40,417 bases of DNA. Origin: Chloroflexota bacterium (GTDB taxonomy: Bacteria; Chloroflexota; Limnocylindria; P2-11E; CF-107). The position numbers were made by a program, and so were the translations under genes. Below, in pieces: positions 15,180 through 38,936 of this stretch. The first letter of the stretch is position 1. Each line of letters begins with the position of its first letter. The stretch covers positions 1 through 40,417 of the forward strand of contig VBHP01000087.1 in the NCBI GenBank assembly GCA_005881435.1, read 5' to 3'. The notes under the pieces were generated by a model that was given only the letters and a program-made list of their open reading frames with translations, was not told where the DNA came from and made no database searches.

Positions 15180-15305
15180 GTGCGAAAGCTTGTCGCAGTG
15201 CTCTTGGCCTGTCTGATCGCCACGAGTTGTGGTTCCGCGGGCTCGCCCTCGCCGGGATCTTCCGCGGCGCCGGGCGGTGGCGCCAGCCCGAGTTCCGGCT
15301 ACTGA
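15180..15305 (+). CDS. Very small predicted lipoprotein (41 residues)
   Basis: From GTG 15180, the 41-residue product starts VRKLVAVLLACLIATSC. This is a short basic n-region, a hydrophobic core and a lipobox-like ATSC, followed by a Gly/Ser/Pro/Ala-rich tail. It resembles a complete signal peptide with a stub of a mature lipoprotein. It could be a real tiny lipoprotein or the remnant of a longer one. Its last seven bases overlap the end of the oppositely oriented rhodanese gene. Confidence 0.5.
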   Translation: MRKLVAVLLACLIATSCGSAGSPSPGSSAAPGGGASPSSGY

Positions 15306-15679
15306 GTCTGCGGGTCCTCGCGATCCACCGGTAGGCCTTCGCGCTCCCACCCCGCGAGTCCGTTCTTCAGGACGCGGATCTTCGCGGCGTCGTAGCCGTC
15401 GGCGATCAGCTGTGCCGCCAGACCGGCGGCGCTCTCATCGGCGACTCAGGTTCAGTAGAGGACCAGCAGCTTATCGCGCGGCAGCTCGCCCTTCCGTTCC
15501 GGGTACTCGCGCCTCGGATACAGGATGTCGTTTGCGATGTGCACGCGCCGATGCGCGACCGCCCGGCGAACGTCGACGATGAGCAGCGGCTCGCCGCGCT
15601 GCATCCGCTCCCACGTTTCACGCGCGCTGATGCGCGGCAGTCGCTCGAGTGCCGCGGCGTCGTCCCCATGCGCGGTCAT
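15299..15679 (-). CDS. Rhodanese-like selenoprotein with UxU active site (two in-frame TGA)
   Basis: Read through two TGA codons, this gives 126 residues. The N-terminal half ends in RDKLLVLY; then come TGA (15452-15454), Thr, TGA (15446-15448), then VADESAAGLAAQLIADGY, ending GWEREGLPVDREDPQTQ and TAG. Many rhodanese-like domains have the active loop LYCxC followed by an Asn/Asp-Glu-x-Ser-Ala stretch. Here both cysteines are exactly replaced by TGA, and the fold continues intact to a WxxxGxP end. Rhodaneses move sulfane sulfur (or selenium) through the active-site residue. A SECIS-like hairpin follows. ATG 15679 is used; GTG 15715 would add 12 residues. The alternative, a pseudogene with two stops, is much less likely because no other damage is seen. 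Confidence 0.87.
15414..15430 (-). promoter_or_regulatory. Predicted bacterial SECIS element of the rhodanese gene
   Basis: On the minus strand GCCGCC (15430-15425) pairs perfectly with GGCGGC (15419-15414) around the loop GGTCT (15424-15420). The loop begins 28 bases after the first TGA and 22 after the second. GGUCU is the apical loop sequence recognised by SelB in E. coli fdhF, and a G among the first two loop bases is the general bacterial SECIS rule. One hairpin appears to serve both TGA codons. Confidence 0.8.
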
Positions 15680-15747
15680 CACCGATAGCGTAGCGAGCCC
15701 GACATCGCTGCACACGGCGTGCAGTCAACCATGCGTAGGGAGTCGAC

Positions 15748-33363: not shown

Positions 33364-33660
33364 CCCAGAATGCTACGCACGAACGCCGCAGCGATGCGTC
33401 GGTAGGTCGCCAGGTACGAAAGGCTCGACTCGCCGTGGTCGCGGTCGCCATCGATACCGAGGTGACGCGATTTCCTGTTCGCTTACCGCTCGGTCATAGG
33501 ACTTCTCTCTCTCGGTTGACGGTGCCGTTTTCGTCATCGCGCTCCGAGCGCCATGGGAGCAACGTTGTACAGCGAGGCGGGAGGTCGTCCCGCGAAGCTG
33601 AACCAAGCTCTCGCACCACCAATTCTCGGCGAGAGCGGGGTTCTGAGGGAAGGGAAGCGA
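33364..33660. promoter_or_regulatory. Divergent intergenic region with structured leader before the beta-helix gene
   Basis: These 297 bases hold no gene that I can support. Close to the beta-helix start are two hairpins: GCGGGA/TCCCGC (33577-33593, loop GGTCG) and the 8-bp GCTCTCGC/GCGAGAGC (33607-33636). The ribosome site GGGAAGGGAAG precedes ATG 33661. A TTGACG at 33516-33521 is the only -35-like hexamer noticed, without a good -10. A structured 5' leader is possible, but I cannot match it to a known riboswitch. Confidence 0.4.
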
Positions 33661-35949
33661 ATGTCCTTGCATTACGCGCGCGACCTATCCGAGTTCAACG
33701 CGCCGCTCGCACGCCCGCACTCCCTCCTGAGGTTCACCACGACGCTCGCCCTGGTTGGCGCGGTGCTGATCAGCGTCGACGTGGTCAGCCCCGTCGATGC
33801 GATGGTCGCGCCCGCGGTACGCAGTGCGGTCACCTTCGTTCGCACCACCACCGCCTCGATCGGTAAACCTGCCGCCAGCGCAGAGCAAAGCGTGTCGCTG
33901 CTGAGCGCCAACTCCGGACCGACCACGTCGATTGCCGGCGCGCCGCGGCTCGTGATCACGCCGACGACGGGCCTGCCGGGCGCCGTCGTCCGGATCACGG
34001 CGCTGAATTTCCCGAATCAGAAGATCCAGTTCCTCTGGGACGGCGACAAGCGTGACATGCCCACCGCCGTGGCAAACGCGAACGGCACGTTCAACGTCTC
34101 GCTGACGGTCCCCTCGAGCGGCGGCACGGGCTACCACGTGATCAGCGCCGCCCCGATGGGAGGCGGCAACGCTTCGTCGAAGACCGCGCTCGCGACGATC
34201 GTCTTCAGCGTCTCTGCCACGAATTCGGGTGCGACTTCGGCGCCACTGACCAGTAAGGCACCGACGGGGCAGCGACCCGCGCCGTCACCGTCGGCGTCAG
34301 TTCAACCAGTGGTCGCACCGCCGAGCCCATCCACCCCCCAGCCGACGCAACCAACGTCGGCGCCGACCGCACCACCGACACCGACGCAGCCCGGTGCGAC
34401 AGCGACCCAGCCACCGGCGACCACGAACCCACCGGCGACCACGAACCCGCCGTCAACGGCGACGGCGACACCCGTCGTGATCCTGTTCCCCGCGGATCCC
34501 GTCGGCTTCATCGATACCCCGGCGGGCAACGCGAACGTTTCCGGGGCCTTGCAGATCGTGGGGTGGGCCGCCGACCGCAACGCCGCGGGGAGCGGCACCG
34601 GCGTCGACAGCGTCACGGTCTACCGCGACGGCCTGCCGGGCACGGGAGCGCTCCTTGGGGCCGCGACTTATGGTCTTTCCCGGCCCGATGTCGCAGCCAA
34701 CCTCGGAAACAACCGCTGGACCAACTCCGGATGGAGCGTGAACTGGACGGTCGGGTCGCTGAGCGCCGGCGCTCACACGATTTACGCGCTGGCGCACTCG
34801 ACGATCACCGGCGCCACCACCAGCATGGCCCAGACGGTCAACGTTGCAGGTGTGGCGACACCAACGCCCGCGGCAACGACGGCCCCGGCGACCGGCGGTG
34901 TGGCCGCGCCGCCGCGAGCGCCGTCGGCCTATGCGATCCCGGCGGGCGCAGTGTCCGTCTCGAATAGCGCAGGGCTGATCGCGGCCCTTGCCGCAGGGAG
35001 CCCGCAGGACATCGTGCTCGCGGCCGGTGTGTATGACAACCCCGCTCCGTTCCAAGACAACAACGGGCACCGGCTTTACTCGGCCACCCTTGGCGGCGCG
35101 GTGTTTCACACGGGGATCGTCATGGGCGGCAACTGGCCACCGGGTCATCCCCTGGTTCAAGGCATCACCTTCGATCTGACCGATCCCTCGAAGATCTTCG
35201 GAGGCGGGATCGTGTACACGTGGGGTCCCGGTGGAGTCGGAGCGCGCGTCCTGGACTCGACCTTCTATGGCCACAGCGTCATCGGCACCGGGGTCATGAT
35301 GCGCCAGCCCGAGGGAGCTGTGGTGCAGCGGGTTAAGGTGCGGGATTTCACCGACTACGGCGTGCTCGTCGACGCGAACGTTCAAGGGCTAGTCCTGACG
35401 ACGCCGGTCCTGCTGGAGGACCTCGACGTCGCGCACGTGATTCGTCCGGCGGGGCAGAACTCCGCCGGAACCGCTGAACAGTGCGTCTGGATGGGCAACA
35501 CCGGCATCCTGCGCCGAGCCCTCATCCGTACGTGCCCCAGCGGCCTGAATGCGATCACCGCGGATAACGGCTCGATCCACGAAGACCTCGACATAGATGA
35601 CACGGAGGTCGGCGTCTACATCGAGCACTTCACCACGGGGTCGACGTTCCAACGGATGCGGATCGGTCCGAACGTGAACATCGGCGTCAATTGCGAGTGG
35701 GACTATGGAATCGGCCAACCGGCGTCGGTCGATAACGTCATCCAGGACAGCACGATCCAGAGCCGAGTGGCCGGAGTGAACATGGATGACGGCACGACCC
35801 GAACGACCGTGCGCAGGGTCAAGTTCATCGGACAGAACTGGGCTGCAATCGGTAACTACCATGGCGTCAACAACGCCTACTACGACAACGACTACAGCGG
35901 GATCCTCCCTGGCGCGGTGCCTGTGTCGCTCAACCACCTGCCGAACTAG
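33661..35949 (+). CDS. Secreted Ig-domain/Pro-Thr linker/beta-helix protein (long paralogue)
   Basis: A protein of 762 residues. A hydrophobic N-terminal segment (about 24-48) acts as signal or anchor. An Ig-like domain (about 100-190, PRLVITPTTGLPGAVVRITA) follows, then a Pro/Thr-rich linker (about 205-275), then a second Ig-type module (GFIDTPAGNANVSGALQIVG to about 400), and a C-terminal right-handed beta-helix domain (about 420-762). It resembles surface adhesins or polysaccharide lyases, but no catalytic motif is evident. The beta-helix half is highly similar to the protein at 37410. Confidence 0.78.
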   Translation: MSLHYARDLSEFNAPLARPHSLLRFTTTLALVGAVLISVDVVSPVDAMVAPAVRSAVTFVRTTTASIGKPAASAEQSVSLLSANSGPTTSIAGAPRLVITPTTGLPGAVVRITALNFPNQKIQFLWDGDKRDMPTAVANANGTFNVSLTVPSSGGTGYHVISAAPMGGGNASSKTALATIVFSVSATNSGATSAPLTSKAPTGQRPAPSPSASVQPVVAPPSPSTPQPTQPTSAPTAPPTPTQPGATATQPPATTNPPATTNPPSTATATPVVILFPADPVGFIDTPAGNANVSGALQIVGWAADRNAAGSGTGVDSVTVYRDGLPGTGALLGAATYGLSRPDVAANLGNNRWTNSGWSVNWTVGSLSAGAHTIYALAHSTITGATTSMAQTVNVAGVATPTPAATTAPATGGVAAPPRAPSAYAIPAGAVSVSNSAGLIAALAAGSPQDIVLAAGVYDNPAPFQDNNGHRLYSATLGGAVFHTGIVMGGNWPPGHPLVQGITFDLTDPSKIFGGGIVYTWGPGGVGARVLDSTFYGHSVIGTGVMMRQPEGAVVQRVKVRDFTDYGVLVDANVQGLVLTTPVLLEDLDVAHVIRPAGQNSAGTAEQCVWMGNTGILRRALIRTCPSGLNAITADNGSIHEDLDIDDTEVGVYIEHFTTGSTFQRMRIGPNVNIGVNCEWDYGIGQPASVDNVIQDSTIQSRVAGVNMDDGTTRTTVRRVKFIGQNWAAIGNYHGVNNAYYDNDYSGILPGAVPVSLNHLPN

Positions 35950-37409: not shown

Positions 37410-38936
37410 GTGCGAACCCGGGCGCGAGTGGGCGCCGGAATCGCGTCGGCGTTTTTCACGATCTTGCTGACCGCGGGCACGCTGTTACCGATCGCAGCGG
37501 CCCCCGCTACGGACTCCAGCGAGCCGATCGGCTTCATCGATGTGCCCGCCGCGAAAGCGAGTGTCTCCGGGACGGTGCGACTGCAGGGTTGGTCCATCGA
37601 TCGCAATGCGACCGAAGGGACCGGCGTCGACGCAGTCACGATATACCTCGACGGTGGTCCCGGACTGGGAACACTTCTGGGCAGTGCGGCGTATGGCCTC
37701 TCTCGCCCCGACGTGGGGACGTACTTCGGCGATCCCAACTTCAACGACTCCGGCTGGACCTTCACCTGGAACCCAGGCACATTGAGTCCGGGATCGCACA
37801 CGCTATATGCGGCGATGCACTCCAGCGCCACCGGTGCGACGAAGATCGTGATGCAAATAATCAGCGGCCCACCGATCCCCGACGTACATGTCGCTCCGCC
37901 CCAAGCGCCGTCCGCATACACGACTCCAGCCAGCGCGGTCAACGTTTTCGATTCGGAGGGATTGATAGCGGCGCTACAGGCCACGGCGCCCCAGGACATC
38001 GTTCTGGCATCTGGTAGCTATGACAACGCGGGGCCATTCCAGAACTCGAACGGCCACCGTATCTACTCGGCGACGCTTGGTGGCGCTGTCCTCCACGCCG
38101 GAATCGTGATGGGGGCCAACTGGGGACCCGGTCATGGCCTAGTTCAGGGCGTCACTTTCGACTTGACAGATCCCGCGAAGACTTTTGGCGGTGGAATCGT
38201 CTACACGTGGGGCGCGGGCACCGTCGGGACGTCGGTCTTGGACTCGACTTTCTACGGCCACAAGCTCATTCCCGCGGGGATCGTCGTACGCCAACCGGAG
38301 GGCGCTGTGGTACAGCGGGTGAAGTTGCGCGACTTCACGGACTACGGCGTGCTCGTCGATGCGAACGTTCGCGGGTTAACGCTGACGAAGCCCGTGTTAC
38401 TTGAGGACCTCGACGTCGCGAACGTGAATCGCCCGCCCGGGCAGCCTTCGTACGGGACCGCCGAGCAATGTGTGTGGCTGGGGAATACCGGCGTCCTGCG
38501 GCGTGCGCTCATCCGCTCTTGTCCAACTGGACTCAATGCGATCACGGCGGACGCCGGCTCGATTCACGAGGACCTCGACATCGATGACGCGGGGGTCGGC
38601 GTCGAAATCGAGCATTTCACCACTGGGTCTATTTTCCAGCGGATGCGCATCGGTCCGAACGTCACCGCCGGGGTCAATTGCGAGTGGGACTATGGGACCG
38701 GGACGCCGGGATCAGTCGACAACATCATCCAGGACAGCGTGATCCAGAGCCGTGTTGCCGGAGTGAACATGGATGACGGCACCATCCGGACGACCGTACG
38801 TCGGGTCAAGTTTATCGGACAGAGTTGGGCCGCGATCGGCAACTACAGAGGCGTCAATAACGCGTACTACGACCTCGACTACAGCGGGATCGCTGCCGGC
38901 GCAGTGCCGGTCTCCCTCGATCACTATCCAAACTAG
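37410..38936 (+). CDS. Secreted Ig/beta-helix protein (short paralogue)
   Basis: A protein of 508 residues from GTG 37410. A signal peptide (about 1-32, ending near AAAPATDSS), one Ig-type module (GFIDVPAAKASVSGTVRLQG, about 40-150) and a beta-helix domain (about 165-508) align end to end with the C-terminal part of the 33661 protein. It lacks that protein's first Ig-like domain and Pro/Thr linker. Shared strings such as DGSRVAGVNMDD-type turns and VKFIGQ-WAAIGNY run to the end. Its stop overlaps that of the converging aminotransferase gene. Confidence 0.78.
   Translation: MRTRARVGAGIASAFFTILLTAGTLLPIAAAPATDSSEPIGFIDVPAAKASVSGTVRLQGWSIDRNATEGTGVDAVTIYLDGGPGLGTLLGSAAYGLSRPDVGTYFGDPNFNDSGWTFTWNPGTLSPGSHTLYAAMHSSATGATKIVMQIISGPPIPDVHVAPPQAPSAYTTPASAVNVFDSEGLIAALQATAPQDIVLASGSYDNAGPFQNSNGHRIYSATLGGAVLHAGIVMGANWGPGHGLVQGVTFDLTDPAKTFGGGIVYTWGAGTVGTSVLDSTFYGHKLIPAGIVVRQPEGAVVQRVKLRDFTDYGVLVDANVRGLTLTKPVLLEDLDVANVNRPPGQPSYGTAEQCVWLGNTGVLRRALIRSCPTGLNAITADAGSIHEDLDIDDAGVGVEIEHFTTGSIFQRMRIGPNVTAGVNCEWDYGTGTPGSVDNIIQDSVIQSRVAGVNMDDGTIRTTVRRVKFIGQSWAAIGNYRGVNNAYYDLDYSGIAAGAVPVSLDHYPN

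Follow-up and report, generated by a model that had tools for sequence, protein, structure and literature searches.

A rhodanese gene interrupted by two TGA codons

The window, that is, the whole 40,417-nt stretch of DNA analysed here, contains on its minus strand an open reading frame of 127 codons, including the stop, whose sole interruptions are found in the triplets TGA-ACC-TGA at positions 15454–15446. The first-pass annotation had reported two TGA codons one Thr codon apart in an otherwise intact rhodanese frame, and this arrangement was confirmed. The features of the locus are as follows:

15299–15679, minus strand: putative rhodanese selenoprotein gene of 126 amino acids with two in-frame TGA codons, from ATG at 15679 to TAG at 15299
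15680–15715, minus strand: possible N-terminal extension if translation begins at the alternative GTG, 15715; the start is not settled
15452–15454, minus strand: first TGA, putative Sec76 (ATG numbering), aligned with the Cys that is catalytic in ordinary rhodaneses
15446–15448, minus strand: second TGA, putative Sec78 (ATG numbering), aligned with the Sec of CxU rhodaneses
15414–15430, minus strand: SECIS-like hairpin GCCGCC-GGTCT-GGCGGC with a 6-bp stem and the loop GGUCU, 16–32 nt past the second UGA

If both TGA codons are read through as selenocysteine (Sec), the motif appears in the context ...DKLLVLY-U-T-U-VADESAAGLAAQL..., where the single Thr codon (ACC) between them encodes residue 77. 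The GC content at the three codon positions was 0.77/0.44/0.85 upstream of the TGA codons and 0.81/0.46/0.83 downstream, near that of the real neighbour genes. A plus-strand gene of the short-chain dehydrogenase type flanks this lone gene on each side, and a hydrophobic N-terminal stretch is not evident in the rhodanese product.

Elsewhere in the window, two A-rich 45-nt direct repeats, 84% alike (1550–1659), precede an ORF resembling aldehyde:ferredoxin oxidoreductase. Two secreted-looking paralogues (33553–35949 and 37410–38936) are similar in their C-terminal halves, with a 300-nt stretch that is 72% identical.

The Pfam Rhodanese profile (PF00581) matched the protein at 5.7e-10 and 40 bits, above the gathering cut-off of 22.2. 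The match spans residues 31–125 of the GTG-start form and covers both sides of the TGA codons, so the homology runs across both of them. The structure predicted from a 24-member alignment had a mean pLDDT of 95.2, and its top PDB matches were rhodaneses. Judged by its sequence and this model, the protein is a single-domain rhodanese, for which sulfurtransferase activity is only inferred. The ordinary one-cysteine rhodaneses BH2092 (3nhv/3o3w) and YgaP (5hbo) have the same fold and carry Cys at the first TGA; the active-site Cys of 3nhv/3o3w was aligned to this codon, the second TGA following two residues later. Unlike the window gene, they have no Sec codon, and their identity to the window protein is about 23%–28%.

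Selenocysteine machinery and the SECIS-like hairpin

A search for the sel genes found all of selA, selB, selC, and selD in the genome from which the window comes. SelB scored 335.6 bits against a cut-off of 242, and a SelA-like ORF, identified by sequence rather than by profile search, adjoins its gene. The tRNA-Sec (selC) with anticodon TCA scored 72.5 bits; ARAGORN did not find it on the contig carrying selB and selA, and it is located on another contig of the genome. SelD (G000:C54:6740-7669) scored 361 bits and is probably itself a selenoprotein, since its gene contains one in-frame TGA.

The same genome encodes a paralogous rhodanese of this family with the motif F-C-T-U-P-H-E, corresponding to CxU at the same site. 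The gene of this paralogue (FCTUPHEETS; L039 6605-6979; G000:C74:13604-13918) lies downstream of a PHP-domain-like ORF, and its product has CPYC at the C-terminus. A third match, on contig C51, was rejected as a family member, being an ordinary rhodanese with a TGA upstream of the domain.

The 6-bp hairpin with the loop GGTCT that had been noticed downstream of the TGA codons was found again at 15430–15414, its loop lying 22–26 nt past the second UGA and 28 nt past the first. The two strands of the window contain 823 TGA triplets, and a 6-bp stem with G23 in exact register comes after just one of them, the one preceded by TGA-NNN. The hairpin keeps the family register with the pair 16–32 added, pairs swapped, and the loop GGUCU, in which a Gly codon (GGT) occupies the place where the family usually has an Arg codon. 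It was the minimum-energy fold when 54–60 nt of sequence were used, while a 49-nt segment folded in isolation favoured another structure (z −0.27). Synonymous recodings of the window protein produced an equally long stem in 18% of samples (P 0.18). The family SECIS covariance model, constructed with the window excluded, placed the hairpin rightly, with 6.1 bits, an E of 2.9, and fifth place in the list, but this model is too sequence-specific to be decisive. Taken alone, the window hairpin thus has only weakly significant statistical support, and for this reason it is persuasive mainly through the register it has in common with the family.

This register was counted without gaps, with the first nucleotide past the second UGA as position 1. 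Every one of the 48 UxU sites, the window among them, has positions 17–21 paired with positions 27–31 and a G as the second loop base. Nearly all CxU sites have the hairpin in the same register, with one or two single mismatches. With the window left out, pairing held for 99.5% of the cells in 84 distinct sequences, compared with at most 61% when the partners were slid; both partners vary in four of the five stem pairs, and the observed covariation values were not reached in any of 500 shuffles. Against synonymous recodings, the mean z was −2.6 in UxU and −2.8 in CxU sequences. The four CTC genes have kept from two to five of the five hairpin pairs.

CxC, CxU, and UxU forms of one rhodanese family

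Querying 400 genomes of the phylum Chloroflexota with both proteins of the window's genome revealed many one-TGA rhodaneses and several with two TGA codons, the forms read at the one site being C-T-U, C-A-U, C-T-C, U-T-U, and U-A-U. Scanning 84,980 species genomes with the pattern Y-U-x-U-P-x-E-x-[ST][ST]-[AV]-R yielded 46 loci, all of which have a rhodanese around the motif Y-U-[T/A]-U-P-x-E. Eighteen belong to Chloroflexota, 25 to Deltaproteobacteria/Desulfobacterota, one to Nitrospiraceae, and one to Planctomycetota, so that nearly all come from two phyla; 41 of these 46 genomes have SelB above the cut-off. A second scan, in which TGA, TGC, or TGT was permitted at both positions, covered 795 genomes of the two phyla and returned 89 sites (72 CxU, 17 UxU, and no UxC or CxC); the reversed pattern matched once. 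Since the motif pattern misses some members, such as the window gene and the CTC forms, these counts are valid within one motif only. No order of events was inferred from the lack of UxC; this argument was abandoned because, within this motif, the second position is nearly always Sec.

In the family alignment both active-site columns are invariantly Cys or Sec, and the first position was Cys or Sec in 90 of the 90 family sites read. Homologues carry C-x-C, C-x-U, or U-x-U at the two TGA positions; C-x-C or U-x-U homologues had been named by the first-pass annotation as support for its claim. Its "CxC" subgroup would be more aptly called a family in which CxU is the common form. At the level of sequence, the comparison showed that the window site corresponds by homology to the site at which one rhodanese subfamily has C-x-C or C-x-U; the putative first Sec replaces the canonical catalytic Cys of rhodaneses, and the second corresponds to the Sec known from the CxU forms.

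Among 177 genomes of the class, two TGA codons were found only in that of the window, and the class loci read were ordinary one-Cys rhodaneses. A tblastn search of plasmids with the window protein gave no match. In another genome of the same order, a rhodanese with the sequence YCWDFQ-U-DLAP (L025 1501-1815; G004:C28:53845-54159) is a candidate selenoprotein of the C-x4-U type, with one in-frame TGA five residues past the active-site Cys.

A tree built from 94 domains requires 19 changes for the UxU state, at least six of them forced by well-supported branches, which indicates that Cys and Sec have repeatedly replaced each other at the first position; this tree is based on 125 columns and leaves many forks unresolved. 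A hydrophobic N-terminal stretch is present in 30 of the 46 UxU proteins, some of which also have a lipobox-like Cys. This suggests that most UxU rhodaneses, unlike the window copy, may be exported or anchored, acting outside the cytoplasm. The neighbour genes of the UxU loci are scattered, with no common partner and no conserved neighbour. Because of this, and because the window gene is a lone one, genomic context names no substrate, and function by association was dropped.

Most known selenoproteins contain one Sec. A 2026 review of the prokaryotic selenoproteome comprises 119 families or subfamilies, among which are rhodanese form 3 (NF041203, CxU, one Sec) and form 5 (TsoB, UxxxxU, two Sec); a UxU rhodanese is absent from this catalogue (PMC13188914). 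No described UxU rhodanese was known to the first-pass annotation, and none was found in the literature searched, although an earlier mention is not excluded. Of the NCBIfam profiles, NF041203 (rhodanese_LYCAU, CxU) matched the window protein best, with 58.2 bits, below the curated cut-off of 115; the other UxU domains scored 69.5–86.3 bits as trimmed domains. Form 3 agrees with the window gene in domain, active-site position, second-position Sec, and SECIS register, but it has one Sec preceded by Cys (PMC13188914), whereas the window gene has Sec codons at both positions and the catalytic Cys is replaced. TsoB (NF045694, rhodanese/DsbD fusion-like) likewise has a rhodanese-type domain with two Sec, but it differs in its UxxxxU spacing, 572-position profile, and fusion architecture from the single-domain UxU protein, which scored 24.8 bits and did not meet the TsoB cut-off of 805. 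Two Sec in one redox motif also occur in Prx-like thiol:disulfide oxidoreductases (UxxC/UxxU), which, unlike the UxU rhodanese, have a thioredoxin-type fold and a two-residue spacer (PMC13188914); this likeness makes a diselenide conceivable. Since UxU is missing from the catalogue and the literature and NF041203 is the best match, we consider UxU to be a new form, with two Sec, among the CxU rhodanese selenoproteins, and the window gene to be a divergent example of this form.

Two probable selenocysteines and their possible chemistry

The sel genes, the 46 further UxU loci, and the conserved in-register hairpin support the earlier proposal that both positions are selenocysteine served by one shared SECIS. 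Both active-site residues of U76-T77-U78 are very probably Sec, although translation of the gene and the presence of selenium in its product are only inferred.

The UxU rhodaneses may be real and the window copy nevertheless decaying and no longer usefully translated. It is the most divergent member of the family, with the longest branch of the tree (end branch 2.13) and at most 34% identity to any other member, and it has lost the conserved Pro and the Ser-Ala-Arg usual after the motif. On the other hand, its 126 codons are free of TAA and TAG, the codon-position GC is the same on both sides of the TGA codons and close to that of real neighbours, the fold residues are kept (model confidence 95), and the hairpin is retained in register with swapped pairs, so decay appears improbable. 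A sequencing or assembly error hiding a true CxC or CxU gene could be suspected in a fragmented assembly of 151 contigs, but errors would have had to arise independently at precisely the two Cys/Sec columns, which is unlikely, and the UxU state recurs in 46 other assemblies; this possibility is negligible.

It could also be supposed that Sec is inserted at the second UGA only, the first being a stop or read by a near-cognate tRNA, so that no functional two-Sec protein is made. The SECIS register is indeed fixed to the second UGA in CxU and UxU genes alike, and the loop is 28 nt away from the first. However, the second UGA can be reached only by a ribosome that has passed the first, the first position is Cys or Sec at every family site read, and UxU accounts for 17 of the 89 motif sites in 795 genomes, which leaves very little room for this explanation. 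Less readily set aside, though still unlikely, is the case in which both Sec are present and the pair mainly binds or senses a metal or metalloid instead of performing redox chemistry or chalcogen transfer. Sec has been proposed as a metal ligand in other proteins (PMC13188914), and the N-terminal stretch of 30 of the 46 UxU proteins suggests export or anchoring; against a metal site are the rhodanese fold, with the motif within the active-site loop, and the scattered neighbours, which form no metal-resistance cluster.

For a redox-active two-Sec rhodanese, the following mechanism can be inferred. SelB and tRNA-Sec would decode both UGA codons in one ribosome passage by means of one hairpin. 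Sec76 could act as the attacking selenolate on sulfane sulfur or another electrophilic substrate, Sec78 would resolve the intermediate, and an internal diselenide or Se-S intermediate would be re-reduced by a thiol system. The enzyme would then be a redox-active persulfide/polysulfide reductase or a chalcogen carrier, not a one-Cys rhodanese. The chemistry proposed for Sec76, Sec78, and the diselenide is tentative, and we regard it as somewhat doubtful. Transfer of selenium or sulfur by way of a diselenide, which the first-pass annotation had suggested, may likewise occur.

More broadly, UxU rhodaneses could represent a recurrent class of diselenide enzymes, in which the catalytic residue has alternated many times between Cys and Sec in proteins with a Sec already present two positions further along, one SECIS serves UGA codons 6 nt apart, and the two selenols join in a diselenide or jointly hold a chalcogen atom. 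To our knowledge, such paired-selenol chemistry has not been described for rhodaneses, and we consider the arguments for and against this class evenly balanced. The finding also points to an annotation gap, as UxU genes are split in two by gene callers reading TGA as a stop, and the 2026 catalogue has only the one-Sec form of the CxU/UxU rhodanese. Natural CxC, CxU, and UxU forms share one fold and one RNA element in a single family, and therefore the gain from a second selenium and the capacity of one SECIS to serve two UGA codons could be tested by single-codon swaps.
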